35,846 nt of DNA from NCBI GenBank assembly GCA_031269345.1, contig JAISZH010000093.1, positions 1 to 35,846 on the forward strand, written 5' to 3'. This document shows positions 2,500-35,846 of this stretch, piece by piece (positions within the stretch are counted from its first letter, which is position 1; each line of letters starts with the position of its first letter). The notes beneath the pieces were generated by a model. It was not told where the DNA came from, did no database searches, and saw only the letters and a list, made by a program, of their open reading frames with translations. Position numbers and translations under genes: made by a program. Source of the stretch: Desulfovibrio sp. GTDB taxonomy: Bacteria > Desulfobacterota > Desulfovibrionia > Desulfovibrionales > Desulfovibrionaceae.

Positions 2500-2525
2500 G
2501 GCGTCATTCTTTTGGGTAAAGGTGC

Positions 2526-3692: not shown

Positions 3693-3716
3693 TGCCTCAT
3701 CGTCCCTGTTATTCGG

Positions 3717-3822
3717 GTCTCAAATAAAATGTGCCAGTTACAGAATTCAGCATGGAAATCTGAACAGCGACCCGGCGGCCGCCGCTGCCGCGAAGCGGCG
3801 CAAGTCAGCGGAAAACCGCGTT
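3717..3822 (-). repeat. Dispersed repeat R2, copy a (partial, inverted)
   Basis: The reverse complement matches the right two thirds of R2 copies b and c. Shared parts are the TTGCGCCGCTTCGCGGC hairpin, a GGCCG-rich second hairpin, CAGATTTCCATG and an ACATTTTATTTG-like end. It fills the gap between the beta-propeller and NTF2-like genes. It overlaps the stop codon of the latter. Confidence 0.7.
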
Positions 3823-17271: not shown

Positions 17272-17776
17272 AGGCAGCCAGATAAGGGGAAAGGCAAGTT
17301 AAGAAACCGCTGCCTCCTGTCCAAACTATGGGGACCACCTCTGTCTCGTTCTGTCTCGCCATAAGCGAATGTGTGGCGCTGGCGCACGGTGAGTTTTTGA
17401 TCGGCATATCCTGATAGACGGGCGGGGCATGTCCATGCTGAACCATGCTTTGCCTGCGGGAGACGCTCAGTGCGTGCCCATGTCGAGCAGGGGGGACAAA
17501 CAGGGAGCGGCGGACCAAGACGCCCGTACGGATACCCCGCCCTTCAGGGCGGGGTCGGGCTATCCGGCCTGAAGGCCGGGGTCTCAAACCGTAAAGGAAG
17601 CTCAGATCAAAACGGGGCAAAACCTTTTAGCTTTTGATTTGCAATTTCAGGAGGACAGTGGGAAAATACGTTCGCGGAAATACGGGCGTGAGATAGCCTA
17701 GCCCGGCAGCGCGTCCCGTGTTTGGCCGGGTTCGGGATGCTGTTCAGGCCGGGAACCGGGCCGCAAAGGACAGGCG
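17272..17776. other. Gene-poor stretch of decayed mobile DNA upstream of copA
   Basis: No complete gene is supported. The sequence beside the transposase remnant resembles further insertion-sequence debris, followed by repeat R1 copy b. Bases 17700-17776 are GC-rich and directly precede the copper ATPase; no clear metal-regulator box was recognised. Confidence 0.4.
17524..17608 (+). repeat. Dispersed repeat R1, copy b
   Basis: CGTACGGATACCCCGCCCTT, a CCCCGCCCTTCAGGGCGGGG hairpin, a CCGGCCTGAAGGCCGG hairpin, then AAACCGTAAAGGAAGCTCAG with ATC in place of the ATG found in copies a and d. This shows the full twin-hairpin form. Confidence 0.85.
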
Positions 17777-20681: not shown

Positions 20682-21974
20682 CTAAAGTCCCCAAGCGTTG
20701 GGCTTGCTGCCCGGCCTCGGGCCGCCGTTCAGTTCCACTTCCTGCGGAAACACGGGCAGGTAGCGGTAGGACAGGCTCAAAAGTATGCCGCCGTAGGCCA
20801 GCACCAGGCCGCATGGCGCCCATTCGACCCAGTTCGGAACATAAGTGACCCACTGATCAAAGGGCATGGACGGCATGGCCAGGGTCTGCACGGTCAGCAC
20901 ATAGCGGTTGATGACCACCCCGGCGCAATCCAGGACGGCCGCCGTATAGAGCAGTTTGGGATTGGCGCGCATCGCGGACGAGCAGAGCATGAAACAGGGG
21001 ATAACGCCGCAGAGGACAATTTCCGCGAAAAGCAGCCATTTGCCATAGATCCAGCCGTAGAAAAACTGGTCAAAGGAAATACCGGCGCTGGGGGCCAAAC
21101 CGTAGATCCAGGCGCCGGTGTCCAGGATTTTAAAGACCGTGTAGACCACGAGCATGGTGCCGGCTATCTTGCCCATCAGCATCTTTACGTCCTGGGAAAC
21201 CAGTTTGCGCCCGGTCATTTTTTCCATGAGCGCGGCGATCAGCATGGTCAGGGCCGGGCCGGAGGCCACGGCGGAGAGGATGAACAGGAAGAAGGTCCAA
21301 GGCCAGATGAAAAATCCGTCGCGAAAGGCGTAAGGTCTGCCGAAGAGCACCCCGTACATTCCTCCGAGCGACCCCTGGTGGAAGGTGGAAAGGAAAGCGC
21401 CCATGCCGGCGAAAAGAGGCATGACCACATGCAGGTTGTGGGCCAGGGCGTGGAACAGGGGCACGCGGTTGATCTGCTTCTGCTCCAGGATGAGCGGAAT
21501 GTATTCTATAATCAGGACGATGCAGTAGCAGGTGATGCAGAAGATGACCTCGGTGAGCATGGAGTGCACGTTGGCGTGCCAGTACCCGAACCAGGCCCGC
21601 AGGGGCTGGCCTATGTCCAGAACCAGGACGATCATGGCCCCCGTATAGCAGATGAACCCGATGATCACCGCGAGGTTGATGACGTTTTTCAGAGGGTCGA
21701 TATTCAGGATATAACGCAAAAGACCCGTGAAAAAAGCCCCGGCGCCGAGGGCTATCACCCCGAGATCAAAGGTGATCCAGAGGCCGAATCCGAAATAATC
21801 GTCAAGGGCGGTCATGCCGAGACCCCGGCTTAAAACCAGGTAGGCGGCATAGACGCCGATCAGCAGGATGACGCTCAGCACTCCCAGCCAGAGCATGAAA
21901 CAGGACAGGGGACCGCGTTCGCAGTCTTGCGGAATCAGGGCCGCGTCAACGGGACGAATGTAGTTCGGTGTCAT
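20682..21974 (-). CDS. qrcD: Qrc complex subunit D, NrfD-like membrane protein
   Basis: This 430-residue NrfD/PsrC-family integral membrane protein has about ten hydrophobic helices (first at ~25-48, last at ~395-412). In the Qrc complex it holds the menaquinone site, where electrons arriving through QrcC reduce menaquinone. Charged residues inside helices (for example the DLGVIALGAGAFFTGLLRY region, about 75-95) fit a proton path, as reported for NrfD-type subunits. It is the last of four genes in the standard qrcABCD order; QrcC ends 12 bases upstream. Downstream hairpins between 20560 and 20625 may end the transcript. Confidence 0.9.
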   Translation of the reverse strand: MTPNYIRPVDAALIPQDCERGPLSCFMLWLGVLSVILLIGVYAAYLVLSRGLGMTALDDYFGFGLWITFDLGVIALGAGAFFTGLLRYILNIDPLKNVINLAVIIGFICYTGAMIVLVLDIGQPLRAWFGYWHANVHSMLTEVIFCITCYCIVLIIEYIPLILEQKQINRVPLFHALAHNLHVVMPLFAGMGAFLSTFHQGSLGGMYGVLFGRPYAFRDGFFIWPWTFFLFILSAVASGPALTMLIAALMEKMTGRKLVSQDVKMLMGKIAGTMLVVYTVFKILDTGAWIYGLAPSAGISFDQFFYGWIYGKWLLFAEIVLCGVIPCFMLCSSAMRANPKLLYTAAVLDCAGVVINRYVLTVQTLAMPSMPFDQWVTYVPNWVEWAPCGLVLAYGGILLSLSYRYLPVFPQEVELNGGPRPGSKPNAWGL

Positions 21975-21986
21975 GCTCGCCGCTCC

Positions 21987-22814
21987 TTAATGCCTCTTGG
22001 GCAGGATTTGCTTTGGTTTCTGGGTGTCCTCGTCCGGCAGATAGTTATCGCCGAGACGCCGGACCCACTCCCGCCTGCTGATGTAATAAACGGCCGTGTC
22101 CGTCCCCAGTCTCTCAAGAAGACGGAAGGCGTTGGCGTTACCCGTGACCAGCCTGTGCACCAGATGGTCCGGGTTGTTGAGGTCCCCGAAAACTATGGCA
22201 CCGTTCGGACAGGCCTCGGCGCAGGAAGTGACGTAGCCGTCCTCGGGCACGGCGCAATGCAGTTTGTTGTCCGTGCCGCGCACATAGACCTCGCCGCCGC
22301 CGGCGCGAACCTTGTCTTTGGCCTGCATGAAGCGGTGATGGCAGAAGGTGCATTTTTCCACGACGCCGCGCGGGCGCGTGGACACGTCCGGGGTCAGGGC
22401 CTTTTCCATGCCTCTGGGCCAGACCGGGTCAAACCAGTTGAAACAACGGGCGTGATAGGGGCAGGCGGCCATACAGTAACGGCAGCCTATGCAGCGGGGA
22501 TAAATCTGGCTGACTATGCCCCCTTCCTCGTTCCTCTCCGTGGCCACCACCGGGCAGACGGTGGCGCAGGGCTGCTCGGCGCACTGCTGACAGGGACGGG
22601 GCAGGTAGGCAATCTCATGATTGGGAAAGCTTTTTTTGTTGGAAAGTTCATAGACCACAAGCCAGTTAGTCACGCGCTGCTTGTTGGAGGCGTCGGCAAG
22701 CGGGGCCAGGTTGTTCTCCGCCTGGCAGGCCACCATACATGCGCCGCAGCCGGTGCATTTGTCCAGGTCTATGGCCATTCCCCATTTGACGTTGAAGTGC
22801 TTGTTCGCTGACAT
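21987..22814 (-). CDS. qrcC: Qrc complex subunit C, iron-sulfur protein
   Basis: This 275-residue periplasmic ferredoxin-like subunit has four cysteine clusters: CTGCGACMVAC (about residues 20-30), CQQCAEQPCATVCP (~75-88), CIGCRYCMAACP (~108-119) and CTFCHHR..CAEACP. This is the DmsB/NrfC pattern, giving a wire of three to four Fe-S centres between QrcA/B and QrcD. It has no signal peptide, so export probably depends on co-transport with QrcB through the Tat system, as in related complexes. It lies 12 bases after qrcB and 12 before qrcD. Confidence 0.92.
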   Translation of the reverse strand: MSANKHFNVKWGMAIDLDKCTGCGACMVACQAENNLAPLADASNKQRVTNWLVVYELSNKKSFPNHEIAYLPRPCQQCAEQPCATVCPVVATERNEEGGIVSQIYPRCIGCRYCMAACPYHARCFNWFDPVWPRGMEKALTPDVSTRPRGVVEKCTFCHHRFMQAKDKVRAGGGEVYVRGTDNKLHCAVPEDGYVTSCAEACPNGAIVFGDLNNPDHLVHRLVTGNANAFRLLERLGTDTAVYYISRREWVRRLGDNYLPDEDTQKPKQILPKRH

Positions 22815-22826
22815 GGCTGGCAGTCC

Positions 22827-24908
22827 TTATGCTTTGTTGATGTCCACGCCGGCTTTGGCCCAGAAACTCAAGCCGGTTTCAGGTTCAGAAACCGGGCGCA
22901 CCACTTCCATGACGTTGGCGCCCTTGTCGCGGCTGAACTCGTCAAGGGCGGTATGGCCGAAGCCCCGGCACACACCGGCCGTGTCGTCGATAATCCCCTC
23001 GAACACGCGCACCCGCGCGGAAATTTTCCTGCCGCCGGCTTCCAGAGAAACTTTGTCTCCGTCGGCAAGATTGTTGCGGGCGGCCGTGGCCCGGTTCAAC
23101 AATACGGACATCAGTCTCCCCGCCAGTTCGTCGGCGCGCAGGGTCTTGTTGTTGTACGGAGGTATGCCTGTCTTGGCCGTGCCGAGGCTCGCCCGGTCGT
23201 AGACCGCGAGCCGCAGCTTGCCTTGGGGCTTGTCCGGGGCGAGGGCCTTGTCCAAAACTTCCGGCCTGAAAGAAAACGCCCCCGTTTTCGCCCTTTCCGC
23301 GCTCTCCGCGGCAAATCCCCCGGCCATGGGGTCAAAATCGCTCTTGCCGTGAAGTCCGGCCTTGGCCCTCAGGATGTCCGCGTAGAGCTCAAAGCCCAGG
23401 TCATTACCCAGACGGCGGGCGATATTGAGAACGACGTTCGCCGTATTCAGCACCCCCGCATTGGGCCGCCCGACGGCCGTGGAAATACAGTAGCCGATCT
23501 TTCCGCTCCCATACGGGGTTTCCACGTCGTCCAGCCGTTCAAGCCCCATGCCCAGAGGAAGGACCAGATCGCAAAGAGCCGCCGTCTCATCCATAAAGGT
23601 GCTGAAACAGACCTTGAAAGGCACCGCCTTTAACGCCTCCGCGCAAGCCCGCGCATCCGGCAGGGCGAAGACTGGGTTGGCCTCGTGGATCAGAAGCAGC
23701 GCCGGCTTTTCCCCGCGCTCGAAAAATTTCGTCAGGTCGTTGCGGTGGATTTCCGCAAGGCTTGAAGCCCCTTTGAGCACTTTCGCGGCCTTGGGCAAAA
23801 GCACGAGACCGCCGGGTTCGTTGATGTTCCCGAGCAAGGCGTTCACCGCAACCCCGGCCATGATCGGCGCCGCCCCGCCTCCGGCGGCGGAGCCGACAAT
23901 CAGCAGGGGCTTTTGCGCGCCCAGGAGCCTCGCGACCTCGGCTTCCAGTTTTTTGCCGTCCACGCCCGTCAGTTCCGCGATTTTCTCCGGGGTATAAGCG
24001 GACGCCAAAGTCTTGAATTCCTCAAAATCGCGCGCGGGCGCCGTTTTCCCGGCCAGGATCAGCATATTGGCGATACCCAGCGCAAGAATGCCCTCCGTGC
24101 CCGGATAGATGGGCAGCCAGTCCACGGCCACGGCGGCGGTATTGTTCTGCACAGGCCCGGCATAGACCAGGGAGACGCGATCGCTCGTCTCTTCCCTGTC
24201 GGACCCGGACTTGCGGAAAGAATGGGGCCGGGACTTCGCGAAAACGCGCCGGTTGCGCAGCACGGTTCCCCAGTTTTCCAGGATATTGGCCCCGATGGCC
24301 AGCAGATGATCGCTCTGTTCGATATCATAGCCCAACCTGGCGTCTATGCCCATAAGTTCCGCGGCTTTTGCCGCGCTCTGCGCCTCCGAGGGCATGAGAT
24401 ACATGTCCGCCGAGCCGAGGGCGTTCGCAAAGGCGCTCAAAACCTCGGTGACGGAGCTTGTCTCGTCCCCGGAGATAAAAGCGGTCTTCCCCCCGGCCTT
24501 TTTAAGTTCGTCCTGAAGTTTTTTCGAAGCCTGGGGCCAGGAAATCTCCGCCAGCTTTCCGTCCGCGCCGCGCAGAAGCGGGCGGCGCAGGCGGCCGGGG
24601 CTATACAGCATCTGCACTTCCGCGATGCTGAGCGGGGAAAGGCCGCCGCCCAAGGGATGCGCGGGCAGGGGCAGGACGCGGACAGGCAGGTCTCCAACCT
24701 TGCGAATTTTCATGGGCACCCCGAAGGGGTCCATCTTGCTGAAGACCTCGGCGTATGTGGACGCGCCTCGCGCCGGGACGGGAATCCAGGACCAGTTCTG
24801 GGACCAGATGGACACGTCGTCCAAAAGCTTCCAGGGAACGGGCGTAACCATTATTCCGGCGCCCGCGCCGGCAGTGATTTTCAAGAATGTTCGTCTGTCA
24901 AAACCCAT
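22827..24908 (-). CDS. qrcB: Qrc complex subunit B, molybdopterin-oxidoreductase-like protein
   Basis: This 693-residue protein has the fold of the DMSO-reductase family and a Tat signal peptide (DRRTFLKITAGAGAGIMV, residues 4-21). Unlike catalytic relatives it lacks the N-terminal Cys motif for a [4Fe-4S] cluster, and no Cys/Ser Mo ligand is obvious. This agrees with the known QrcB, which carries no molybdenum cofactor and serves a structural role. Sequence blocks such as LLLIHEANPVFALPDA and CDLVLPLGMGLERLDDVE keep the family layout. The C-terminal ~130 residues form the usual beta-barrel cap (NRATAARNNLADGDKVSLEA). Its gene follows qrcA by ~40 bases. Confidence 0.92.
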   Translation of the reverse strand: MGFDRRTFLKITAGAGAGIMVTPVPWKLLDDVSIWSQNWSWIPVPARGASTYAEVFSKMDPFGVPMKIRKVGDLPVRVLPLPAHPLGGGLSPLSIAEVQMLYSPGRLRRPLLRGADGKLAEISWPQASKKLQDELKKAGGKTAFISGDETSSVTEVLSAFANALGSADMYLMPSEAQSAAKAAELMGIDARLGYDIEQSDHLLAIGANILENWGTVLRNRRVFAKSRPHSFRKSGSDREETSDRVSLVYAGPVQNNTAAVAVDWLPIYPGTEGILALGIANMLILAGKTAPARDFEEFKTLASAYTPEKIAELTGVDGKKLEAEVARLLGAQKPLLIVGSAAGGGAAPIMAGVAVNALLGNINEPGGLVLLPKAAKVLKGASSLAEIHRNDLTKFFERGEKPALLLIHEANPVFALPDARACAEALKAVPFKVCFSTFMDETAALCDLVLPLGMGLERLDDVETPYGSGKIGYCISTAVGRPNAGVLNTANVVLNIARRLGNDLGFELYADILRAKAGLHGKSDFDPMAGGFAAESAERAKTGAFSFRPEVLDKALAPDKPQGKLRLAVYDRASLGTAKTGIPPYNNKTLRADELAGRLMSVLLNRATAARNNLADGDKVSLEAGGRKISARVRVFEGIIDDTAGVCRGFGHTALDEFSRDKGANVMEVVRPVSEPETGLSFWAKAGVDINKA

Positions 24909-24949
24909 TTCGCACCCCTCTGCTTAGTCGATGCTGAAAATCACGCCGG

Positions 24950-25663
24950 CTACTTGTGGCAGGTGAAGCAGGCGTTGTTGGCGAAAGTCCGTCCCCTGCC
25001 GTCGGCGTTAAAATGTCCGGGATTGGAGTGACAGCGTTCGCATTCCGACATTTTGAGCGTTTCGCTGCTGTACCCGGTGAGTATGTTGGTCTCCACCGGG
25101 GCGTCTTTATTCAGCTTTTCCATGGAGATATGGCAGGTGGCGCAAAGTTTTTGCGGATTTTCCGGGGTGCCGAGGTTAAGCCGTCCCTGCATGGTCAGAT
25201 GACAGGTATAGCATTTGGCGAAATGCGCGGGATGGCTGAAAAACACGTTTTGGGGCTGATACTGGTGCTTGCGCCATGGTACGGGCTTGCCGGGATTCAG
25301 GTAGCTTTCGACAAAACTTTTTTCCGCCTGATAGGCGGCCTTCTCCACGGGAGAGGAGTTTTGCTCCGGCTCGGGCGAAAGTATGCCGTTGTGACAGGAC
25401 ATACAGACGTCATTGCGGGGGATGCCGGTAAAGAAGCCGTCGGAACGCACGGAATGGCAATCGGAGCAGACGGCCCCGGCTTTGTTTATATGCGCCTCGT
25501 GGCTGAAAAAGAAAGGCTGCGTCTCCGAGTCGTACAGGAGGGAGGGAAACACAAGCCACCCCAAGGCCAGGGCCGCGATAAACCCGCCGAGAAACGGCAG
25601 AAGCGCGGCCGCGCACTTCTGGCGACACGCCGGGATCCCGGTACAGTTTGTCTTTTCCTCCAT
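24950..25663 (-). CDS. qrcA: Qrc complex subunit A, multihaem cytochrome c
   Basis: This ~237-residue protein has six CXXCH haem-binding motifs: CSDCH, CMSCH, CYTCH, CATCH, CERCH and CFTCH. It matches the hexahaem QrcA that accepts electrons from periplasmic type I cytochrome c3. A single hydrophobic helix near residues 20-40 (LLPFLGGFIAALALGWLVF) serves as signal anchor, so the haems face the periplasm. Start: the ATG at 25663 is preceded by GAGGCGGGG; the frame also offers ATG 25672 and TTG 25696. It is the first gene of qrcABCD. Its presence strongly suggests sulfate respiration with hydrogen or formate as electron donors. Confidence 0.92.
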   Translation of the reverse strand: MEEKTNCTGIPACRQKCAAALLPFLGGFIAALALGWLVFPSLLYDSETQPFFFSHEAHINKAGAVCSDCHSVRSDGFFTGIPRNDVCMSCHNGILSPEPEQNSSPVEKAAYQAEKSFVESYLNPGKPVPWRKHQYQPQNVFFSHPAHFAKCYTCHLTMQGRLNLGTPENPQKLCATCHISMEKLNKDAPVETNILTGYSSETLKMSECERCHSNPGHFNADGRGRTFANNACFTCHK

Positions 25664-25717
25664 ACCCCGCCTCATCTTTTGGTTGAACGGCAACACCCGC
25701 CGGCTTCGCCGTCTTTT

Positions 25718-26545: not shown

Positions 26546-26590
26546 CATGAAATATGTAAACATTTTAACTCAGGATCGGCTGCGGCGCAA

Positions 26591-26690
26591 ACATGGTTGC
26601 GCCTTGTGCCGGCAACAACATGGTTGCTCCTTGTGTCAACAACAACATGGTTGCGCCTTGTGTCAACAACAACATGGTTGCGCCTTGCCT
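26591..26690. repeat. 27-bp tandem repeat array
   Basis: Four units start at 26591, 26618, 26645 and 26672, each beginning ACATGGTTGCGCCTTG (GCTCC in unit 2). Units 2 and 3 differ at one base; unit 4 diverges after GCCTTG. As the unit is a multiple of three, all frames stay open. On the plus strand one frame repeats HGCALCQQQ, a CxxC motif; on the minus strand frames read MLLLTQGAT or NHVVVDTRR. No ribosome-binding site precedes the plus-strand frame, so coding is unproven. Confidence 0.85.
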
Positions 26691-26764
26691 CACGCCGCCT
26701 ACGGCGGCGCATCCGTCTTGCGGCCGATGTTTACAGCTTTTTGCGGAAAGGGGGATATAAATTC

Positions 26765-29602
26765 TTATTCTTCCAATTCTTCAAGCATGGCGCAGAGATG
26801 CCAGGAACCGTTACCCGTCAACTCGAACATATCAGAGTCGTCTTTCTTCTCGCGGATAAGCAGGCAATCCAGCCATCGTCCAATTATCCCGTCCAATTCT
26901 TCAGCACAGAGTAAATCTTTATGAATTGAGCCTGTCATAAGATGTTTCGCAATCGTTGATCTTGCGAAATTCTCTTCACTTTCAACTATGCTCCCCTGAA
27001 ACAATGGATAACTCCGCGCAACTTCAAGAAATTTTTTTGAAAGTTGCGGACACCGGTAGTGGAGATCCGCGAAGACGCCATCGGCGGATGCGCCGACGGC
27101 AAGCAGATCTTCTCCCCTTCTGGCATGGTTGTAGTAGAGGTTCCGGTCTTGGGGTCTGGCGTAATGGCAAAAATGGTTTTTGTCATATCCCGCCCGCGTA
27201 AGTTTGCTGTCCGCAGCGGCAAACATCGCAAAATCTTTTATGATATCGGGTGAATGGCTATAACGGCGCAGGAATCCCCGGTTGCGGCCGGACTGATTGA
27301 AACCGTACAGCGATATGCCGTGGATCCCCAGGCGGTCCAACCGGTCAATGCCGGAGAAAAACGCCGTGACGCTTTGTCCCGGCAATCCGTACAGGAGATC
27401 CGCGGTGGTCACAAAGCCCCGTTCGAGACAGTCCGCAATCCGTTTGAGCACGGTTTCGGGCGGCTCTCGGCGGCCTATTTCCCGGCGGAGCGGTTCTTCC
27501 AGCGTCTGTACGCCGATGTGCAAGCGTCGAAACCCCAGGCTCCAGAGGAAGTCAAGATGCGGTCCTGTCAACAGGTGCGCTGTGGATTCCAGAGCCCATT
27601 CCGTGGAACGGCTTGTATGGAATCCGGCGCGGACGGCCTCGACGACGGACGCAAAGACTGAAGGCTGGAGATAGTTGGGCGTTCCGCCGCCGAAATGGAC
27701 CGTGGTTACCGGCCATGCCGCCAGCGCGGTCCGCTCCGACCATTGTTGCAGGTCAAGGCGCAAGCGGCGGGCATAAACGGTCTGCAGGGGATGGCCGGGT
27801 CTGGCGCTGCAGGTGTAGCAGTCGCAAAATCCGCACCGTTTTTCGCAAAAGGGAACATGCGCGTAGATGGAAAACGGACGCGCCGGGCCGGCGTTCACAA
27901 TCTGACGCAGTCTGTCCCAGGTGGCGTCGCCGTCATACTGAAAGCCCTTTTTCTCCCAGAGCGGCGCGGGCAGCCTTCTGTTTTCCAGATGATAGTACGG
28001 CTGCGACGCTTTCCAGGCTCGCAGGACTTCCTCACGGACAGGCCGGGGCAGATCGCCCAGGGTTTTCGTGATGACGTCGGCAGCCGCCTGCCCGCGCGAG
28101 GCGGCAGCGGATGCCCGCGCTTCTTCCCGGAGCAGTTCCAGGGCGGTTTCGTTGATCAACGCGCGGCCCACGGCCCGGTTCAGGCGGCAACGGAAAGAAG
28201 CTTCCGCCGCTTTTTCCGAAGGATGATACAAGTTCGCTTTCGACAGAAAGCGAACTTGTGTGGCGGAGGCGAAGCCGCCGCTCTCAAGTTTTTGAAAAAT
28301 CAGGCTTTTCCTGTTTTTCAAAATCTTTGGCGTACTGCATTCAAACTCGTTTGAATGCAGCTTGGTATGAAGATCGTCCTGTAGCGCGCAATCGTCCGGA
28401 CAGGAGCGGGCGCAGTGATACGCGGCAAAACATGCCCGGCACCCGGCCCCGATGCCGGATGCGCGTTCCCGCAGGGACGCCGTCTTGTCCCGGTCAAGCG
28501 CGAACCGGCCGGAACGCCTGTCAAATCCGCCGATAATCTGGGAACTGTTGCCGGGATGGTCGCCGTCCACAACCAGAAAACAGTTCGTGGCTCTGCCATC
28601 GGGAGTGAGATGCAGAGACTGCCGGAGCACGTTGCAATAGGGGCCGTGGTGTTCGTCAGGCCGGAAGCCGGAGAAAGTAAGCGCGACGTTGTGCCGCAGA
28701 GCCGCCCGCTTCGCCCGCATGAAATGCCCTGCCCATTCTTCGGGATCAGTGCCCCCGCCGCCGCCCGCGCCAGCGCTGTACACGGGCTCAAAGGCAACAT
28801 TGTCCGCGCCGAGTTCCACGGCAAGATACTCCAGAATCTCCGCCTGGCGGGAAACCGTCTCCGGCGTGATTGTCGCGCGCAAGTCCAGGCGGGCTCCGGC
28901 CTCCTTCAGCGCGACGGCGGTCCGTCTCACCCGGCCGGAGGTGGGCGCGCCGTCGGATGACGGCCGCTGCCTGTCCTGGATATCGGGCGGTCCGTCGCAG
29001 GACAGTCCGACTCTGCCGAAGATTGCCGCCATCTCCCTGGCAAGCTTGAGCGGTACAACTCCGTTGGTGGCGATATAACCGCTCCACGGCACGGCATGGC
29101 GTTCGGCAACGGCTTTGCTGATCCCGACCAGACGCCGCACGAGATCCCAATGGAGGGTCGGTTCGCCGCCGCCATGGCAGGCGAGCTGAAACACCCGGCC
29201 CATGTCGGCGCAGTTGCGGCCGACCAGTTCGGCCGCCGCCGCGAACGCGTCCGGGCGCAGACAGCCGCCGGAACGGGCCACTGTCCTCGCCGGGGCGGCG
29301 AAGCAGTAAGAACACCGCAGGGAGCACCGGTTGCTCAGGTACACGGTCAGACACTCGGGGCGGTATTCTTCCGCCAGCCAACGGGTTCTGGCCGCCACGG
29401 CGCTGCGGGCGTGGTCCAGAAGCCAGCCGCTCTGTTTCCATAGCGATACATCCTCCCGCGTTTCCGTGCCTCCGTTCCACACCTGCCGCAACAAAAGCGC
29501 CTGCTCGCCCGTGACCACGGCCAAGGTTCCGGGGGTATACAGCAGGACTGTTCCGCCGGGACCCGCAAGTTCATAGATGGGCAGTTCAGGATGAATCAGC
29601 AT
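26765..29602 (-). CDS. Double radical SAM protein: SPASM-type maturase fused to HemN-type domain
   Basis: This 945-residue protein carries two radical SAM centres. The first has CSLRCSYC (Cys 93, 97, 100), the HGGGEP motif (~143-148) and SPASM cysteines (C323, C341, then C388, C391, C397, C401, C405 and C472). The second begins YAHVPFCEKRCGFCDC (Cys 586, 590, 593, 595), exactly the CX3CX2CXC pattern of HemN, followed by HFGGGTP (636-642) and a HemN-like C-terminal region. SPASM enzymes usually modify peptides; HemN-like (class C) enzymes include oxidases and methylases. One chain could therefore perform two chemistries on one peptide (inference). A repeat-derived segment (residues ~411-459) lies inside the SPASM region. 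Last gene of the cassette. Confidence 0.88.
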   Translation of the reverse strand: MLIHPELPIYELAGPGGTVLLYTPGTLAVVTGEQALLLRQVWNGGTETREDVSLWKQSGWLLDHARSAVAARTRWLAEEYRPECLTVYLSNRCSLRCSYCFAAPARTVARSGGCLRPDAFAAAAELVGRNCADMGRVFQLACHGGGEPTLHWDLVRRLVGISKAVAERHAVPWSGYIATNGVVPLKLAREMAAIFGRVGLSCDGPPDIQDRQRPSSDGAPTSGRVRRTAVALKEAGARLDLRATITPETVSRQAEILEYLAVELGADNVAFEPVYSAGAGGGGGTDPEEWAGHFMRAKRAALRHNVALTFSGFRPDEHHGPYCNVLRQSLHLTPDGRATNCFLVVDGDHPGNSSQIIGGFDRRSGRFALDRDKTASLRERASGIGAGCRACFAAYHCARSCPDDCALQDDLHTKLHSNEFECSTPKILKNRKSLIFQKLESGGFASATQVRFLSKANLYHPSEKAAEASFRCRLNRAVGRALINETALELLREEARASAAASRGQAAADVITKTLGDLPRPVREEVLRAWKASQPYYHLENRRLPAPLWEKKGFQYDGDATWDRLRQIVNAGPARPFSIYAHVPFCEKRCGFCDCYTCSARPGHPLQTVYARRLRLDLQQWSERTALAAWPVTTVHFGGGTPNYLQPSVFASVVEAVRAGFHTSRSTEWALESTAHLLTGPHLDFLWSLGFRRLHIGVQTLEEPLRREIGRREPPETVLKRIADCLERGFVTTADLLYGLPGQSVTAFFSGIDRLDRLGIHGISLYGFNQSGRNRGFLRRYSHSPDIIKDFAMFAAADSKLTRAGYDKNHFCHYARPQDRNLYYNHARRGEDLLAVGASADGVFADLHYRCPQLSKKFLEVARSYPLFQGSIVESEENFARSTIAKHLMTGSIHKDLLCAEELDGIIGRWLDCLLIREKKDDSDMFELTGNGSWHLCAMLEELEE
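28226..28372 (+). repeat. Palindromic repeat R3, copy a, inserted in frame in a radical SAM gene
   Basis: The element begins with palindrome AAGTTCGCTTTC-GACA-GAAAGCGAACTT and ends with GCATTCAAACTCGTTTGAAT. Between lie a GGCGGAGGCGAAGCCGCC hairpin and a GAAAAATCAGGCTTTTCCTG arm region. The reverse complement of 33412-33561 matches it at roughly 85-90 percent by eye. It adds about 49 codons without a stop to the 945-residue protein. Confidence 0.88.
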
Positions 29603-29631
29603 GGCATCCGGTGACGGTCTATAGCATTTTA

Positions 29632-29775
29632 CCTTTACGGTTTGAAACCCCGGCCTTCAGGCCGGATAGCCCGCCCCCGCCCTTCAGTGCGGGGTATCCG
29701 TACGGGCGCAAGTCTGGGCGGGGTCCAACCCCGAGGCGCAAGACGAATGGGCATGAAGGCCAATGCCGCCTTCCC
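29632..29775 (-). repeat. Dispersed repeat R1, copy c, at the end of a radical SAM gene
   Basis: Inverted relative to copies a and b, with both hairpins (GGCCTTCAGGCC; CCGCCCTTCAGTGCGGGG, one mismatch). The Shine-Dalgarno end has diverged (GTAAAGGTAAAATG). Bases 29684-29775 are read as the last ~30 codons and stop of the upstream radical SAM gene, and the rest fills the gap to the next gene. Confidence 0.85.
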
Positions 29776-31765
29776 GGCCCGGGCCGGACCCCGTGAGCGC
29801 CAGCTCATAATACTCTCTGCAAACCAGGCAGGAATGGCAACATTTATCGCAGTGCAAAGTCCTGTGGTAGAAGGCGTCGCTGATGTGGATCGGCGTGAGG
29901 GGCGAAGCGGGTCCCCCGCCCACGGAGTCGGGCGTGACGGCGCGGCGGGTGATGTAGGCGTCGAGAACGTCCAGATACCGCTCGGGGTCTTGCAGTGTCG
30001 CCCTGCCGGCTAGCTTGAAGTCCCGGGTAAGGCCGTCGAAAAAGTGCAGGTGCTGGGGCAGCGCCCACGCGCCGGTCAGCCGCATCCAGGGGTGCCTGTC
30101 CAGAAGCGGGTCGCACAAGGATAACGGCACTTCTTCCGCATAGCCCATCTCATAGAAATGCTGCACCCGCATCAGGCAGTCCGGCAGACAGCCTTCATTG
30201 ACGATCAGCCGCAGGGCGCCGGGAAACGCCCGGCCCACGGCCTGGAGCGCCGGATAGTTGCGCATGATCCGGCTGGCGGGAACAAGGGTCTCGCAGATGC
30301 CTGCCAGTTGATGCGCCTGATGGGGCCGGGCGACGTCCATCAGAACCGAGGCGGTCAGCGGCAGGTCCGGCAGACGCTCTTTGACGATCCGGGCCAGGCT
30401 GATGTCGGCGACGGTCACGCCGCTCAGGCGCGTCATGGCCAGCAGGTCTTTGAGTGCCGCGACGACGGGGGCCGCAATGTCTGCCGCCGGACGAGGCAGC
30501 ACCACGGGATTGAGCAGCACGGACACGGGAAGCGGACCATGGCGCAGGAAACTCTCAAGATGCCCGTCCCGTAGCGCCGGCCGCCCCGAGGCCAGCAGGC
30601 TGCGGGGAAGCGGCAGGTAAACTTCCCGGATCGCCGGGCCGTACCGGGCGTGTATTTCCCGCCAGAACGCCGGCGGCTGGTCGATATAGGGGATGGACCA
30701 TCGCTCCTTGTCCGTCCCCGGCTTTGCGCAGGCGCCTGACGCCGCGGACCCCGCGCACGGTCGAGGCCCGGAACGGCCGGGTCCGGGGCGCTGCCGGGCG
30801 CCGGCGAAAATTCGCCCTGTCACGGGAAAAGGGCGCATCCGCCGCAAGGCGGCGGCCCGGCAGCCGCCGTTGCAGCGGGACTGCTCGCGAAGGGGGCAGC
30901 GGCCGCATTCGCCATAGATTCCCGTTTGCGCAAACACGGCCAGTTGATCGCTTAACCGCGCCTGGACGGACCGGGAGGTGTCGCCGGGAAGGCATGACGT
31001 TTGGCAGACGCGCGCCAGCGGGTAACATGGAATCGCCCGCCCGTCGGGGAGAAAATCCGGCAGCGGGTTACAGCGCGCGCCCGGCGGATCCCCGAGGGTT
31101 GCGAACAACTCAAGGTCTTCTTTGTCGAACATGCAGGGCACAAAGCCGCAGTCGAATTCCAGCCGCACCCCTTGGTCAAGGGCCTGGCTGACGAAAAGGC
31201 CGAGGCCGCGCCCGACCGTCCGGTAGTGCCGTGGATGGAGAAAATGGTTTTCAGCGCCTGCGCGGGGGTGCGCCAGACCGGCCCTGACGAAGGGGACAAG
31301 GCCGAACGTCTTGATCAACGGCAGAAAAGGCGCGGGAGAAACGCCGGGATGGTGTATGGTGCAGCCCGGAACGATCACTCCGCCCAAAGCCGCCAAAACC
31401 TGCCGCAGCCGTTTGTCTCCCGGTTCCGGCGGGCAGGCGGCGGGATCAATGTTCAGCAGGATGCGCAAACGCTCCGCAGGAAAGCGTGTGAGGCGGCTCA
31501 GGGCTTTTGTGGGCATCCGGCCGTTGGAAAAAAGCAGCAGATCAAGCCCCCGTTCTTTGATCATGTCTATAAAGCGGCCGAAGAGGGGATGGATCGTCGG
31601 CTCGCCGCCAAGCACGGGGACCTGCCGGATGCCGGAATGCTCAAGAAAATCCAGGGCTTGAGCAAAGACCTCCGGCCGCATATGCCCGGTGTCTTCGTCC
31701 GGACCGGGGACGAAGCAGTACCCGCATCGCCGGTTGCACGAAAAGGTGATGGAAATGTTGCTCAT
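29684..31765 (-). CDS. Radical SAM/SPASM protein with U32-peptidase-like C-terminal half
   Basis: This ~693-residue protein opens with the radical SAM motif CNRRCGYC (Cys 10, 14, 17), then PVLGGEPTIHP. A SPASM-like cysteine set follows (residues ~230-302, including CGRCPLREQSRCNGGC). After a Pro/Gly/Arg-rich linker (~320-350) a second half (~355-650) recalls the U32-peptidase/UbiU-type TIM barrel, with NEGCLPDCLMRVQHF (~524-538). It ends in a cysteine cluster CDKCCHSCLVC (639-649) that could bind Fe-S. The ATG at 31765 overlaps the stop of the PqqD-like gene (TAATG); a frame open to 31918 lacks support. The last ~30 residues come from repeat R1, so the native C-terminus may have been replaced. 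Confidence 0.82.
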   Translation of the reverse strand: MSNISITFSCNRRCGYCFVPGPDEDTGHMRPEVFAQALDFLEHSGIRQVPVLGGEPTIHPLFGRFIDMIKERGLDLLLFSNGRMPTKALSRLTRFPAERLRILLNIDPAACPPEPGDKRLRQVLAALGGVIVPGCTIHHPGVSPAPFLPLIKTFGLVPFVRAGLAHPRAGAENHFLHPRHYRTVGRGLGLFVSQALDQGVRLEFDCGFVPCMFDKEDLELFATLGDPPGARCNPLPDFLPDGRAIPCYPLARVCQTSCLPGDTSRSVQARLSDQLAVFAQTGIYGECGRCPLREQSRCNGGCRAAALRRMRPFPVTGRIFAGARQRPGPGRSGPRPCAGSAASGACAKPGTDKERWSIPYIDQPPAFWREIHARYGPAIREVYLPLPRSLLASGRPALRDGHLESFLRHGPLPVSVLLNPVVLPRPAADIAAPVVAALKDLLAMTRLSGVTVADISLARIVKERLPDLPLTASVLMDVARPHQAHQLAGICETLVPASRIMRNYPALQAVGRAFPGALRLIVNEGCLPDCLMRVQHFYEMGYAEEVPLSLCDPLLDRHPWMRLTGAWALPQHLHFFDGLTRDFKLAGRATLQDPERYLDVLDAYITRRAVTPDSVGGGPASPLTPIHISDAFYHRTLHCDKCCHSCLVCREYYELALTGSGPGREGGIGLHAHSSCASGLDPAQTCARTDTPH

Positions 31766-32049
31766 TACGGCGCGCCTGTTTCCAGCCAGCCTTCTTCCGC
31801 CCATAGGTCCAGGCGGGAACCGACAAGTTCCCGGGCCTCCCGCGGGCCGATCCCGGCGATCAGTTCCAGCATGGAGCGGATCGTTTCCTCGGACCGGCCG
31901 CGGGTTATCAGATCCCATACCGCGGCTTCGGGATAGGCAAGCTCGTGGCGCAAGTTCCGGGTACTATCGAAGAGCACCACGCAGTGCGGTTCCACAACCC
32001 AGGTCACATGCCCGGCGCATCGCGGCTTTGGCCTGTTTTCCATAGTCAT
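31765..32049 (-). CDS. PqqD-like RiPP recognition protein (RRE), 94 residues
   Basis: This small winged-helix protein matches the PqqD pattern: HVTWVVEPHCVVLFDS, then LAYPEAAVWDLITRGRSEET, and a C-terminal L.LWAEEGWLE. PqqD-type RREs bind the leader of a precursor peptide and bring it to a radical SAM enzyme. Its ATG overlaps the stop of the preceding radical SAM gene (ATGA), and its stop overlaps the next start (TAATG). Translational coupling on both sides suggests fixed stoichiometry with both enzymes. Confidence 0.85.
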   Translation of the reverse strand: MTMENRPKPRCAGHVTWVVEPHCVVLFDSTRNLRHELAYPEAAVWDLITRGRSEETIRSMLELIAGIGPREARELVGSRLDLWAEEGWLETGAP

Positions 32050-33596
32050 CCTGCCGGTTCGAAACGGTCTGACGGTTGCAGGGCCAGGGCTTCCATCGCC
32101 TTTCCGTCGGCCAGCAGGGTCTGGGCGATAGAGGACAGGTTCATGTCCTCAAGAAGCCGGCAGGCCGACAGCAGTCGGGTCTGGATACAAAACGGTCCGT
32201 AGGCGGAAGAACTCCCTGGATAACTGTGCTGCACATGACAGCCCCCGGAACAGACCCATTGGCAGAAACATTTTTCACAGCGCGGTTTGTCCCTGGCCAG
32301 ACCGCGCAAGCGCAACACGGCGTCCGGGTCGATATGCATGCCTCCCTGAACGGACAGACGGCCCACGTCCATGTCCAGGCCGCGTTCCACCCAGGTTTTC
32401 CGGGGCAGATAGCAACTGCTGATCCGGCCGTCAGGGGAAACGATCAACGCATCCTTGCCGACCGGACAGAAGCTGGTCTGTGAAGGCTCCCCCTCCGCGG
32501 CCGCATAGACCGCTTTTATGCCGTAACGCAAAGTCCGGGCGCGGGCTTTGGCGTATTGCCTGACAAATACGTAGGGATCCGGAGGAGACAGCCCGGCCGC
32601 ACGGGATTTTGGGTTGTCGGTCAACGGCTCGAAATTGATGACTGATGGCTGAAATTCCTCGCAGAACCAGATGGCGATTTCTTCAAGGCTTTGGATATTC
32701 AGGTTTGATACGCAACAGCGCAGGCAGAGTTCCGTTGGCGTCCGTGAAAGCAACGCCGCGCTTTGACGGGCCGGAGAAAAACTGCCGCGCCTGGAACTGA
32801 TGGGGCGGTGCCGGTCGTGTATATCCTGAAAGCCGTCCAGAGACAAGACCACCGCATGGAAATAATCGCCCACAAATTGAGCGTATTCCTGTTCAAAGAT
32901 GCCATTTGTGGATACTTCGAGATGCAGGGACAAGTCATGGCGGTCCGCCAGCAGGCGGCTCCGGTGGACCGCTGTTTCGACAACATCGCGGCAGACAAGA
33001 GGTTCGCCGCCAAAAAAGTGCACCTCCATATGATCCTGCCCGGCATCCTTCAAAAAATTGGCGTACCAGGTAAGCGCGGCCTCGGCCATGGCCGGGGACA
33101 TATCGGACGCTTTACCTTCACCGGCGTCGAAGTCGCAATACACGCAGTTGCAGTTGCAGCGTCGCGTCGGCAGAATGCCGAGAAAAAGAGGATTGAGCCG
33201 TCCTGTCGCGGATGGCGGTTCACAGGGTTTCCGGGTCAGCAGGTCGGCGAGTTCGTCTATTTCGGGTGGAAAGGACGGGTCCGGCACAGGCTTTCCTATC
33301 CGGCGGCGCAACGCTTTCAGGGCCGACGCATTGAGCAGTGACGCAATCCCGCTTAGTGGGCTGTATATCAGAAAGGCCTCGTTGACCGGCAGTACGAACA
33401 CGCCGGTCTTATGCCAAGCCGCGTTCAAACGAGTTTGAATGCAGGACGCCAAAGTTTTTGAAAAACAGGAGAAGCCTGATTTTTCAAAAACTTGCGGGCG
33501 GCGGCTTCGCCTCCGCCGTCCAAATTCGCTTTCCATCGAAAGCGAATTGGTATGAGACATGCCGCCAGCGCCCTTGCCCACCGCGTTTCCCTTCAT
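32046..33596 (-). CDS. Radical SAM/SPASM peptide maturase with repeat-derived N-terminus
   Basis: This 516-residue protein has CNCNCVYC (Cys 147, 151, 154), then MEVHFFGGEPLV, LSLDG and a SPASM domain (FCPVGKDALIV, SSCYL, CEKCFCQWVCSGGC, and later Cys in GPFCIQTRLLSACRL). This is the PqqE/anSME-type layout, which carries two auxiliary Fe-S clusters. The start ATG at 33596 and its Shine-Dalgarno sequence AAAGGAAG belong to repeat R1, and residues ~13-63 are encoded by repeat R3 in inverted orientation. Native sequence seems to begin around residue 64 (TGVFVLPVNEAFLIYSP). An alternative start is ATG 33560, without a clear ribosome-binding site. It is upstream of the 94-residue PqqD-like gene. 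Confidence 0.85.
   Translation of the reverse strand: MKGNAVGKGAGGMSHTNSLSMESEFGRRRRSRRPQVFEKSGFSCFSKTLASCIQTRLNAAWHKTGVFVLPVNEAFLIYSPLSGIASLLNASALKALRRRIGKPVPDPSFPPEIDELADLLTRKPCEPPSATGRLNPLFLGILPTRRCNCNCVYCDFDAGEGKASDMSPAMAEAALTWYANFLKDAGQDHMEVHFFGGEPLVCRDVVETAVHRSRLLADRHDLSLHLEVSTNGIFEQEYAQFVGDYFHAVVLSLDGFQDIHDRHRPISSRRGSFSPARQSAALLSRTPTELCLRCCVSNLNIQSLEEIAIWFCEEFQPSVINFEPLTDNPKSRAAGLSPPDPYVFVRQYAKARARTLRYGIKAVYAAAEGEPSQTSFCPVGKDALIVSPDGRISSCYLPRKTWVERGLDMDVGRLSVQGGMHIDPDAVLRLRGLARDKPRCEKCFCQWVCSGGCHVQHSYPGSSSAYGPFCIQTRLLSACRLLEDMNLSSIAQTLLADGKAMEALALQPSDRFEPAG
33412..33561 (-). repeat. Palindromic repeat R3, copy b, at the start of a radical SAM gene
   Basis: Both palindromes are present (GCATTCAAACTCGTTTGAAC-type and AATTCGCTTTCGATGGAAAG-type on the minus strand), with the GGCGGAGGCGAAGCCGCC hairpin between. 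It is inverted relative to copy a. It contributes about 50 codons to the 5' end of the gene, in a different reading frame of the element from that used in copy a. Confidence 0.87.
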
Positions 33597-33812
33597 CTGA
33601 GCTTCCTTTACGGTTTGCGGCCCCGGCCTTCAGGCCGGATAGCCCGACCCCGCCCTGAAGGGCGGGGTGTCCGTACGGACGGAAGCCTGGCGAGGTCCAA
33701 ACCCCGCCAAAGCGCAAGACGCATGGGCCTGAAGGCCGATGCTGCCTTCCTGGTCCAGGCTTCCTTTACGGTTTGCCATCCCGGCCTTCAGGTCCATGCC
33801 ACCTTCTTGGTT
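33593..33812 (-). repeat. Dispersed repeat R1, copy d, with an adjoining partial copy
   Basis: Full-length R1 at 33593-33757 (two hairpins, GCGTCTTGCGCTTTGGCGGG, and the end AAACCGTAAAGGAAGCTCAG plus ATGAAG). A shorter second copy follows at 33758-33812 (CCGTAAAGGAAGCCTGG end). The two fill the gap between the 138-residue PqqD-like gene and the following radical SAM gene. Confidence 0.87.
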
Positions 33813-34228
33813 CACTCCGGACTGTCCAGGGGATGACAGATTCCGTTTTGCGCCAGGGCCACAAAAAGAGATTTGACCAGGCCCGCGGCAGCGTCGGACG
33901 AAAGATCGAACTCCGATTCCGTCACAGCGCAGATGTCAGCGATAGAATGCCGTCCATCAAAGCGGCTGATGATATATTTTTGCCGCGCGGTTAACGGCAT
34001 ATGGCGTTCGTAGGGCGCGTCAGGGCTCTTTTGCAGCAGCAGCCAGCCATCTTCCATGCCAAGGGTTATTCCCTGATAAACAACCGGTACCATCTTGCGC
34101 AGCACAGCGTCCGGCAGCGAACCTATCTCGTCCAGACGAAAATGCGGTTTTCCGCGCAACTCGTCGACAACGGCCAGGGCTTCGGAGAACAGTGAATGCA
34201 GGTACTGTCTGCGGTTTACATTTTTCAT
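33812..34228 (-). CDS. PqqD-like RiPP recognition protein (RRE), 138 residues
   Basis: This ~138-residue protein has a longer N-terminal part (residues ~1-60, rich in helix) and a PqqD-like C-terminal part (~75-135: PLTARQKYIISRFDGRHSIA, LSSDAAAGLVKSLFVALAQN). Compared with the 94-residue paralogue it is more divergent, so the RRE call rests on layout and neighbourhood. Start: ATG 34228 overlaps the stop of the radical SAM gene upstream (ATGA); a frame open to 34270 would overlap that gene further. Together with its neighbour it forms an enzyme/recognition pair. Confidence 0.7.
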   Translation of the reverse strand: MKNVNRRQYLHSLFSEALAVVDELRGKPHFRLDEIGSLPDAVLRKMVPVVYQGITLGMEDGWLLLQKSPDAPYERHMPLTARQKYIISRFDGRHSIADICAVTESEFDLSSDAAAGLVKSLFVALAQNGICHPLDSPE

Positions 34229-35571
34229 GCCGTTTCTTCTGAAAAGGGCGGACTCCGCGTTCCCCGCCACACGCCGCCGCCTTCCTCAATATAACGAACA
34301 AGCAGCTCCGTGGTTATGGCCCGATTCAACTCGCAGCGGCTGCCGTGCGTCAAATGGCCGTCCCCCCTGTCGGAAAAGGTCTTGGACGGGCAATCGCCCG
34401 CGCAGTGGTAGAAACAGAAACAGCGTTTACAGCTTTGGCGGCGTTCCTCGATTTTCGCCAGAAAACCCTGTCTGGCTCCGGGGGTGAGCCGGATAGCTCC
34501 GCTCGCGTCCATGTCGCCGAAAATAAAGCCGCCGGCAAGTTCGTGCCGACGGTTGCAGACTTCGTAACAGGCCGTAAGGAACCCGTCAGGACCGACGATC
34601 AACGCGGAAACAACGGCGTCGCAAAACCTGCCGGTCAGCAGCCAGGGCCGGGCGCCGGAATAATACATGTGCCGCTGATGCCGGGCGGCGATATCGTACC
34701 CTTCCATAAAATATTCCGCGAAGGCGGCTTGTTGCCGGAGCGCCACCCGGTCAAGCCTGGCGCGTCCGTGGGAGAAGGCCGGTTCGACCTGAAAAGCCGG
34801 GGAGCCGGTCTCTCGGCACAGATAGTCGATGACCTCAGGTATGCGCGTGATGGTCCGATCCGTGACCGTGACCCGGATGCCATACGCGATTCCCTTACGG
34901 TCCAGGGCCTGCAGGGTGCGCGCCACGGAAGCGTGGCTGCCCCTGCCGCTCTTTCGCGGCCGCTGTGCGTTCTGGATGGAAGGCAGGCCATCGCAGGAAA
35001 GGCTGACTTCGTCGATATTGTTCAGGATCCAGGCGCGTTGAGTTTCGGTCCAGACGCCGTTGCTGGTCAGGTTGATTTTGGCCGGTAACGGGGATTTCCG
35101 CGCGTACGCCACACAGTCCTTGAGAACGGACCAGGCCATGGTCGGCTCGCCGCCGCCATGAAAACAGATGGAGTAGTGGTCATGCCCCTGATCAAGGGCG
35201 TTGCGGCAGACCGTATCGATTGCCGCGCGGGCAAGGGGAAGCGGCAAATCCCGCGTCTCGCCCGCGCCGTCGCCATGTGCGTAACAGTAGATGCAGCGCA
35301 GGTTGCACGCATCCGTCAAAAACAGCACGCAGACAGTCGGGAGGAAAACGTCCGAAACCGGCGCGTTGTCGGCAAGGCACGCGTCTTCCTCGAAAAACCC
35401 GATACCGCGGAGAAAAAGGTCCGCTTCCGTATCCGCGCGCCTGACCGCCGGGTCCGCGGCGGAAAGCGTTTCACACAGCCGCGCCATAGCCCGGTTGCCG
35501 ATAAAGGCAAGATGTCGCAGAGGCCGGTAGATTATCACCTTGTCTTTATATGGGATTGCGTATAGTTCCAT
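34225..35571 (-). CDS. Radical SAM/SPASM peptide maturase next to the precursor
   Basis: This 448-residue enzyme has an N-terminal ~80-residue region that may bind the peptide. The radical SAM motif is CNLRCIYC (Cys 89, 93, 96), with HGGGEPT (138-144) and LSCDGLPSIQ (191-200). The SPASM domain has Cys 317, 335 and 339, then CKRCFCFYHCAGDC (381-394), and Cys 413 in RCELNR. It resembles the first half of the 945-residue protein in order and motif context, so the two are probably paralogues. The ATG at 35571 is chosen because the 35718 frame runs antiphase through the precursor. It starts 53 bases after the Cys-rich peptide gene, so that peptide is its likely substrate. Confidence 0.9.
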   Translation of the reverse strand: MELYAIPYKDKVIIYRPLRHLAFIGNRAMARLCETLSAADPAVRRADTEADLFLRGIGFFEEDACLADNAPVSDVFLPTVCVLFLTDACNLRCIYCYAHGDGAGETRDLPLPLARAAIDTVCRNALDQGHDHYSICFHGGGEPTMAWSVLKDCVAYARKSPLPAKINLTSNGVWTETQRAWILNNIDEVSLSCDGLPSIQNAQRPRKSGRGSHASVARTLQALDRKGIAYGIRVTVTDRTITRIPEVIDYLCRETGSPAFQVEPAFSHGRARLDRVALRQQAAFAEYFMEGYDIAARHQRHMYYSGARPWLLTGRFCDAVVSALIVGPDGFLTACYEVCNRRHELAGGFIFGDMDASGAIRLTPGARQGFLAKIEERRQSCKRCFCFYHCAGDCPSKTFSDRGDGHLTHGSRCELNRAITTELLVRYIEEGGGVWRGTRSPPFSEETA

Positions 35572-35596
35572 GGCCGCGTCCCGCCGCCCGAGTCCG

Positions 35597-35623
35597 CGCT
35601 CCGCCGCGTTCCCGCGTGGAGCG
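35597..35623 (-). terminator. Hairpin between precursor and first maturase, candidate attenuator
   Basis: CGCTCC/GGAGCG outer arms and CGCG/CGCG inner arms with a small bulge start one base after the precursor stop codon. There is no T-run. Hairpins at this site in RiPP operons commonly let precursor mRNA outnumber the enzyme mRNA; that role is inferred. Confidence 0.55.
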
Positions 35624-35624
35624 G

Positions 35625-35846
35625 TCAATTGGGCCGCCAGTAATGGCTTCCTCCGCGCGTGACATGGCCCACGCAGGAGCAACCGGAAGGGCGCGTAACA
35701 TGGCCCACGCAGGAGCAACCGGAAGGGGTCGTGGTTTTCCCGGCCTTTGTGCCGACCGAGATCGTATTGCAGACGCAGACTTCTTTGCCGCCGCCATATC
35801 CGGCGGGCACGGCTATGGTGTCGCAGGTGCAGATTTGCTGCGTTGT
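35625..35846 (-). CDS. Cys-x-Cys repeat peptide, candidate RiPP precursor (5' end outside the window)
   Basis: The minus-strand frame is open from the window edge to TGA at 35625-35627, giving at least 73 residues with no start inside except a GTG at 35810. It holds four C-x-C motifs: ICTCDTIAVPAG, VCVCNTISVGTKAG, and twice SGCSCVGHVTR. The first two share CxC-(D/N)-TI-x-V; the last two come from a 36-bp duplication. Cysteine pairs at regular spacing, many Thr/Ser/Gly residues and the position just ahead of a radical SAM/SPASM gene fit the core of a RiPP precursor. The leader would lie beyond the window. No known family is recognised. Confidence 0.65.
   Translation of the reverse strand, partial: TTQQICTCDTIAVPAGYGGGKEVCVCNTISVGTKAGKTTTPSGCSCVGHVTRPSGCSCVGHVTRGGSHYWRPN
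35655..35726 (-). repeat. 36-bp tandem duplication within the precursor gene
   Basis: Units 35655-35690 and 35691-35726 differ at one base. Each encodes PSGCSCVGHVTR, so a whole CxC unit has been duplicated in frame very recently. Confidence 0.9.

Follow-up and report, generated by a model that had tools for sequence, protein, structure and literature searches.

A radical SAM operon in Desulfovibrio sp. as a candidate maturation system for a cysteine-rich tail on exported WD40 proteins

Contig JAISZH010000093.1 of Desulfovibrio sp. carries a minus-strand operon encoding radical S-adenosylmethionine (SAM) enzymes, small recognition proteins and, as its first gene, a CxC-rich open reading frame (ORF). 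The stretch analysed, here called the window, is the entire contig (35,846 nt) of a 2.63-Mb draft genome; its right edge is the contig end, which falls inside that first gene. Its likely target, the tail of a secreted protein, suggests a form of chemical protein finishing not described before. We put at roughly two in three the probability that the operon is dedicated to maturing a portable, cysteine-rich tail at the C-terminus of proteins exported by the twin-arginine (Tat) route, probably lipid-anchored and mostly WD40 beta-propellers. Family scans and literature searches found no NCBIfam or Pfam family and no published literature describing the system, and every enzyme scored below the curated cut-offs. 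This agrees with the original prediction, made from the sequence of the window, which had proposed an undescribed pathway for a ribosomally synthesised and post-translationally modified peptide (RiPP).

That prediction took the first gene to encode a short CxC-repeat precursor in a classical RiPP pathway, with a protease and exporter perhaps lying beyond the right edge. Comparison with other genomes supports neither idea. The ORF (35625-35846, minus strand) encodes 73 residues with eight cysteines and ends in GGSHYWRPN, but it has no start codon in the window and runs off the contig end, and the rest of the gene is absent from the assembly. In an 'Accumulibacter' metagenome-assembled genome (locus L020) two tail proteins of 464 and 465 residues are encoded in tandem (L020:979-2373 and 2414-3811), each with a twin-arginine signal and lipobox-like cysteine (..LNRRSFIGA..LAAC..), a WD40 beta-propeller and a CxC tail ending in GGHYWRPN. 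Locus L048, in genome G1304 from another family of the window's phylum, encodes a protein of 502 residues built in the same way, and the six genes for enzymes and recognition proteins follow it as in the window. The window tail is 65-75% identical to both L020 tails, and the motif C...P.[GN]A.CxCxCV is present in every tail of sufficient length. Because these relatives carry the CxC sequence as the C-terminus of a WD40 protein, the supposed peptide in the window almost certainly belongs to a large exported protein, as its tail. The Tat signal model TIGR01409 (cut-off 16.7 bits) recognises both L020 proteins (18.3 and 17.3 bits) and the L048 protein (18.4 bits). The candidate substrate is the tail of a Tat/WD40 protein of 464-502 residues in L020 and L048, rather than the short precursor of a RiPP pathway. 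With such a substrate the puzzle of the missing exporter disappears and no protease is required; none was found at any locus read.

The tail is not tied to the propeller. A plasmid of Ca. Chlorohelix (Chloroflexota; NZ_CP128402.1) encodes two tail proteins that are 71% identical over 42 N-terminal residues and have the tail in common, but whose bodies are unrelated. One is a WD40 protein that scores 16.1 bits against TIGR01409, slightly under the cut-off; the body of the second has a tail-less paralogue, 70% identical to it, whose gene lies upstream. As the two share both ends and differ in between, the tail and the segment preceding the Tat signal look like portable maturation signals.

The genes that follow the tail gene are as the original prediction listed them, in the same order and all on the minus strand, with five CxxxCxxC radical SAM centres in four proteins, every one of them intact. 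The overlaps it described between enzymes and recognition proteins are also there. Radical SAM/SPASM enzyme A (rSAM A, 448 residues, 34225-35571) shares an ATGA with the gene for the first recognition protein (RRE1, 138 residues, 33812-34228), whose start we take as the ATG at 34228, the start used by L020, and not the GTG at 34270. A second radical SAM/SPASM enzyme, rSAM B, has its conserved part at 32046-33401 in a frame open from 33596, so that its start is uncertain; it shares an ATGA with the gene for the second recognition protein (RRE2, 94 residues, 31765-32049), which is joined by a TAATG to the gene for a 693-residue radical SAM protein with a U32-like C-terminal half (rSAM-U32, 29684-31765). 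Last comes a 945-residue fusion of a SPASM-type and a HutW/HemN-like radical SAM half (26765-29602).

By sequence, rSAM A and rSAM B are nearest to the thioether-forming maturases PapB, SCIFF/CteB and QhpD, yet far under all the curated cut-offs. Besides C89, C93 and C96, rSAM A has seven further cysteines that are invariant across six homologues and match the auxiliary-cluster cysteines of SPASM maturases. Its best PDB match is CteB (5wgg, E=2e-41) and its best NCBIfam match PapB (NF047865, 104 bits against a cut-off of 340), followed by the SCIFF maturase model TIGR03974 (90 against 425) and QhpD (TIGR03906, 86 against 453). For the rSAM A homologue at L036, a second locus in the L020 genome, TIGR03906 is the best match, at 140 bits. 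The SPASM match of rSAM B in Pfam reaches 19.1 bits against a cut-off of 21.5. The C-terminal half of the fusion scores 171 bits against the HutW/ChuW model TIGR04107 (cut-off 400) and matches HemN (1olt, E=4e-43) and NocN (9p2u, E=6e-26) in the PDB, a group that includes methyltransferases. We considered whether the fusion might be an artefact of a repeat that lies within it, and rejected this, as the repeat is missing from the fusions of L020 and L048; in Chlorohelix its halves are two separate genes. Downstream of the L020 operon lies a fragment of a second SPASM-HutW-like gene, apparently a decayed duplicate (L035:6948-7316, minus strand). When rSAM-U32 was used as a search query, the relatives found were mostly radical SAM matches to its N-terminal half only, and its last ~38 residues read through a repeat.

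Both small proteins, which the original prediction had called PqqD-like, were confirmed as RiPP recognition elements (RREs), RRE1 by sequence and RRE2 by predicted fold. The RRE1 family profile finds PqqD (3g2b, E=3.5e-5). RRE2 has no good sequence match, but its predicted structure (mean confidence, pLDDT, 86.5) combines three strands with three helices, and its closest match is TbiB1 in complex with its leader, at a template modelling (TM) score of 0.85. Each is encoded beside a modifying enzyme, as in RiPP pathways. The best candidate for what they bind is the conserved segment in front of the Tat signal, E-x-P-x-[IV]-[YF]....

The full seven-gene order occurs in three genomes, those of the window, L020 and L048, with the large enzymes 60-78% identical across them. 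The L020 rSAM A is 77% identical to that of the window, and the window's rSAM B is 78% identical to its L020 and 71% to its L048 counterpart. The L020 operon lacks the window's repeats and extends further upstream than the window does. The Chlorohelix cluster contains rSAM B, RRE2, a radical SAM protein that lacks the U32 half, the two tail proteins, rSAM A and RRE1, and two overlapping genes elsewhere on the plasmid match the two halves of the fusion. The ratio of nonsynonymous to synonymous substitution rates (dN/dS) between the window and L020 is 0.19-0.22 for rSAM A, RRE1, rSAM B, rSAM-U32 and the fusion and 0.37 for RRE2, and the genes are clearly under purifying selection. Given this selection and an order common to three genomes, the operon is not a chance assembly, and the co-occurrence of the enzymes, both recognition proteins and the CxC-bearing protein in three full operons and, with the fusion split, in Chlorohelix supports the proposal of a single pathway.

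The system is rare in the genomes sampled. The tail profile found two genomes besides the window's among 395 of its phylum, and none beyond that of L020 among 398 Pseudomonadota genomes; among 247 genomes of the window's class, no other was found to have rSAM A. A plasmid search with the tail returned Chlorohelix only, this one plasmid being our sample of the Chloroflexota. As the operon is both patchy and rare in these samples, its distribution suggests horizontal movement. One tail match, at L030, proved spurious. At every tail-profile locus (two in the L020 genome and one each in G1304, G1400, Chlorohelix and the window) the tail gene adjoins rSAM A, the only enzyme present at all of them. 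The expectation that the CxC protein would be accompanied elsewhere by all four enzymes was borne out in L020, L048 and, with the fusion split, Chlorohelix, but not at L036 or at L049 (genome G1400), where rSAM A stands alone. In G1400, which is 88% complete and has its locus near a contig end, no rSAM B or SPASM-HutW protein was found elsewhere in the genome.

More distant relatives of rSAM A, on Methylocystis and Caballeronia plasmids, likewise lie beside CxC-bearing ORFs. The Methylocystis ORF (L023:11413-11799) is unannotated, has nine CxC motifs and is directly downstream of a radical SAM/SPASM gene; it is likely to be an unreported RiPP precursor. The Caballeronia ORF (L022:11305-11769) overlaps the end of the rSAM A-like gene and encodes a Tat-like protein with three CxC motifs right after the signal, although it has no match to TIGR01409. 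A homologue in genome G355 was rejected as a member of the system, as it belongs to an ordinary RiPP pair, a nitrile hydratase leader peptide (NHLP)-type precursor followed by a radical SAM/SPASM enzyme (L037:8114-10031).

These observations are consistent with the following sequence of events. The two RREs would bind the pre-Tat segment and bring the pre-protein to the radical SAM enzymes in the cytoplasm. There rSAM A would modify the CxC sites; thioether cross-links, as made by its relatives CteB, PapB and QhpD, are the most likely product. The other enzymes, rSAM B, rSAM-U32 and the SPASM-HutW-like fusion, may add further steps, perhaps on the terminal HYWxPN, as this ending occurs only where they occur: it is found in the window, in both L020 proteins, in L048 and in both Chlorohelix proteins, all with the extended enzyme set, and is absent from the tails at L036 and L049. 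The folded, modified protein would then be exported by Tat, which would make both a leader protease and a dedicated exporter unnecessary. That the tail is the substrate we infer from the genes, as we do the bond chemistry, the RRE target, the order of steps, the function of the product and the joint action of all five radical SAM centres on one tail.

Known U32 proteins such as UbiU/UbiV and RlhA have a role in oxygen-independent hydroxylation. By analogy the U32-like half might be an oxygen-independent hydroxylase, which we offer only as a lead. A bolder idea, and a long shot, is that the tail matures into a redox cofactor derived from the protein itself, or into a cross-linked knot with the terminal His-Tyr-Trp as part of it. 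The five radical SAM centres would build it anaerobically, with the U32-like half as hydroxylase, and it would dock on its own fused propeller. It would then be a single-chain anaerobic counterpart of the quinoprotein amine dehydrogenases, in which a propeller goes together with a small cross-linked cysteine-rich subunit.

Several points weigh against the maturation of an exported tail as we have drawn it. The modification chemistry is a reading of genes and sequence, and that the RREs bind the pre-Tat segment is guessed from its conservation. The tail gene is incomplete in this genome. Two loci, L036 and L049, manage with rSAM A alone, although L036, whose tail gene is broken by a frameshift and a stop, carries less weight. 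The correlation between HYWxPN and the enzyme set comes from few loci. The U32-like half falls under its Pfam cut-off of 22.4 bits in both the window (18.9) and L020 (18.8), and the AlphaFold model of rSAM-U32 is unusable (pLDDT 43). Several of the operon's genes are disturbed by repeats, and this copy may be decaying despite its low dN/dS.

Taken further, this last point would mean that the operon in this host is a decaying remnant with no functional product. Repeats have entered the 5' end of rSAM B, the interior of the fusion, the 3' end of rSAM-U32 and the gap between RRE1 and rSAM B, and the tail gene is at a contig break. All the frames are nevertheless open, the motif cysteines are intact and dN/dS against L020 is 0.19-0.37 in the six genes compared, so we regard decay as unlikely. 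The presence of RREs and SPASM enzymes, the usual RiPP kit, raises a different question, whether the tail is a core peptide on an oversized Tat/WD40 'leader' that is modified and then cut off outside the cell as a free product. The short stand-alone CxC ORF of the distant Methylocystis relative would fit such a pathway, but no protease was found at any locus read, and the tails sit on full propellers in four lineages and on a different body in Chlorohelix. Conservation of the propeller, moreover, would be unnecessary in a disposable leader, and release of a free peptide seems to us improbable.

It is equally improbable that the operon houses two pathways, with rSAM A and RRE1 acting on the tail and the other four proteins (rSAM B, RRE2, rSAM-U32 and the SPASM-HutW fusion) on a small molecule or another protein. 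The minimal loci with rSAM A alone would be explained in this way, as would the HutW/HemN-like half, whose group includes tetrapyrrole enzymes, and the siting of the Chlorohelix SPASM and HutW-like genes elsewhere on the plasmid. Against such a division, HYWxPN tails are confined to loci with the extended set, RRE2 has a peptide-recognition fold and the gene order is kept in three genomes. CxC-rich sequences can also bind metals or form disulfides unmodified, and the window contains a copper-type ATPase, although not adjacent to the operon. The tail might then do no more than bind metal or form disulfide bonds on a surface protein, with the radical SAM enzymes acting on something else in the operon. 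This we find very unlikely, as the tail and rSAM A occur together at every tail locus, minimal pairs included, related radical SAM enzymes elsewhere also adjoin CxC-bearing ORFs, and the loci have no other candidate substrate in common.

The repeats belong to two families. A 143-bp palindromic element has about 40 full-length copies genome-wide, two of them in the window. The copy at 33411-33553 forms the present 5' end of the rSAM B frame, and that at 28226-28368 is inserted in frame within the SPASM region of the fusion and translated (~48 residues). Translated palindromic elements inserted in proteins are known from Rickettsia and offer a comparison. The second family (about 65-120 bp, CCCCGCCCTTCAGGGCGGGG...GGCCTGAAGGCCGG...AAACCGTAAAGG) occurs at 1127-1239, 17521-17614, 29632-29733 and 33592-33792. 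It is sited in intergenic gaps, the last of these stretches lying between RRE1 and rSAM B, and is also read into the C-terminus of rSAM-U32, whose 3' end is covered by the copy at 29632-29733. The L020 junctions that match the repeat-bearing junctions of the window are 10 bp apart or overlapping. With their frames open despite the repeats, the window's genes may still work. Elsewhere in the window, a tandem array of a 27-nt unit (26590-26692) separates the operon from rmlC, complete qrcABCD menaquinone reductase genes (20682-25696) point to a sulfate-reducing host, and the copper-type P-type ATPase (17777-20470) has a copper-chaperone-like domain at each end (residues 3-68 and 831-893).

If the operon does mature a tail on exported proteins, radical SAM/RRE chemistry would reach beyond small peptides, to large secreted proteins that bear a portable tail. 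As a single operon can supply as many as five radical centres, such termini might rank with the most heavily modified known in proteins. Nature provides a minimal version, with one enzyme, beside the full one, which makes each enzyme's step directly testable, and the tail profile is a handle for finding further substrates.

The nearest known logic, by analogy, is the maturation of quinohemoprotein amine dehydrogenase, in which a SPASM enzyme cross-links the cysteine-rich subunit of an exported enzyme with a propeller subunit (PMC8172795, PMC8326336), the beta subunit being a beta-propeller (PMC8172795). In that system, as proposed here, the SPASM enzyme (QhpD) modifies the cysteine-rich part of an exported enzyme and not a released peptide, and a beta-propeller is the partner in both. 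The operon's proteins are, however, all far under the QhpD cut-off of 453 bits. The cysteine-rich part is here fused to the propeller, whereas there it is a separate gamma subunit, and the operon adds two RREs and four more radical SAM centres.

Other systems share single features. The ranthipeptide/SCIFF maturases CteB (TIGR03974) and PapB (NF047865) are the best matches of rSAM A and have cysteine-rich targets and thioether chemistry, but act on short precursors and not on the C-terminal tail of a Tat/WD40 protein. HutW/ChuW, the HemN-like proteins and the NocN methyltransferase resemble the C-terminal half of the 945-residue protein, which is here fused to a SPASM-type half within a peptide-modifying operon. 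The SynChlorMet and GeoRSP cassettes (TIGR04248, TIGR04250, TIGR04251, TIGR04303) also combine several radical SAM/SPASM proteins with a PqqD relative, but RRE1 and rSAM-U32 match them weakly, at about 15-28 bits against cut-offs of 100-400. In polytheonamide biosynthesis radical SAM enzymes make many changes on one ribosomal precursor (PMC8326336), much as we propose from the genes of this operon. That precursor has a nitrile-hydratase-like leader and yields a released cytotoxin, in place of the RREs, Tat export and propeller body of the system described here.

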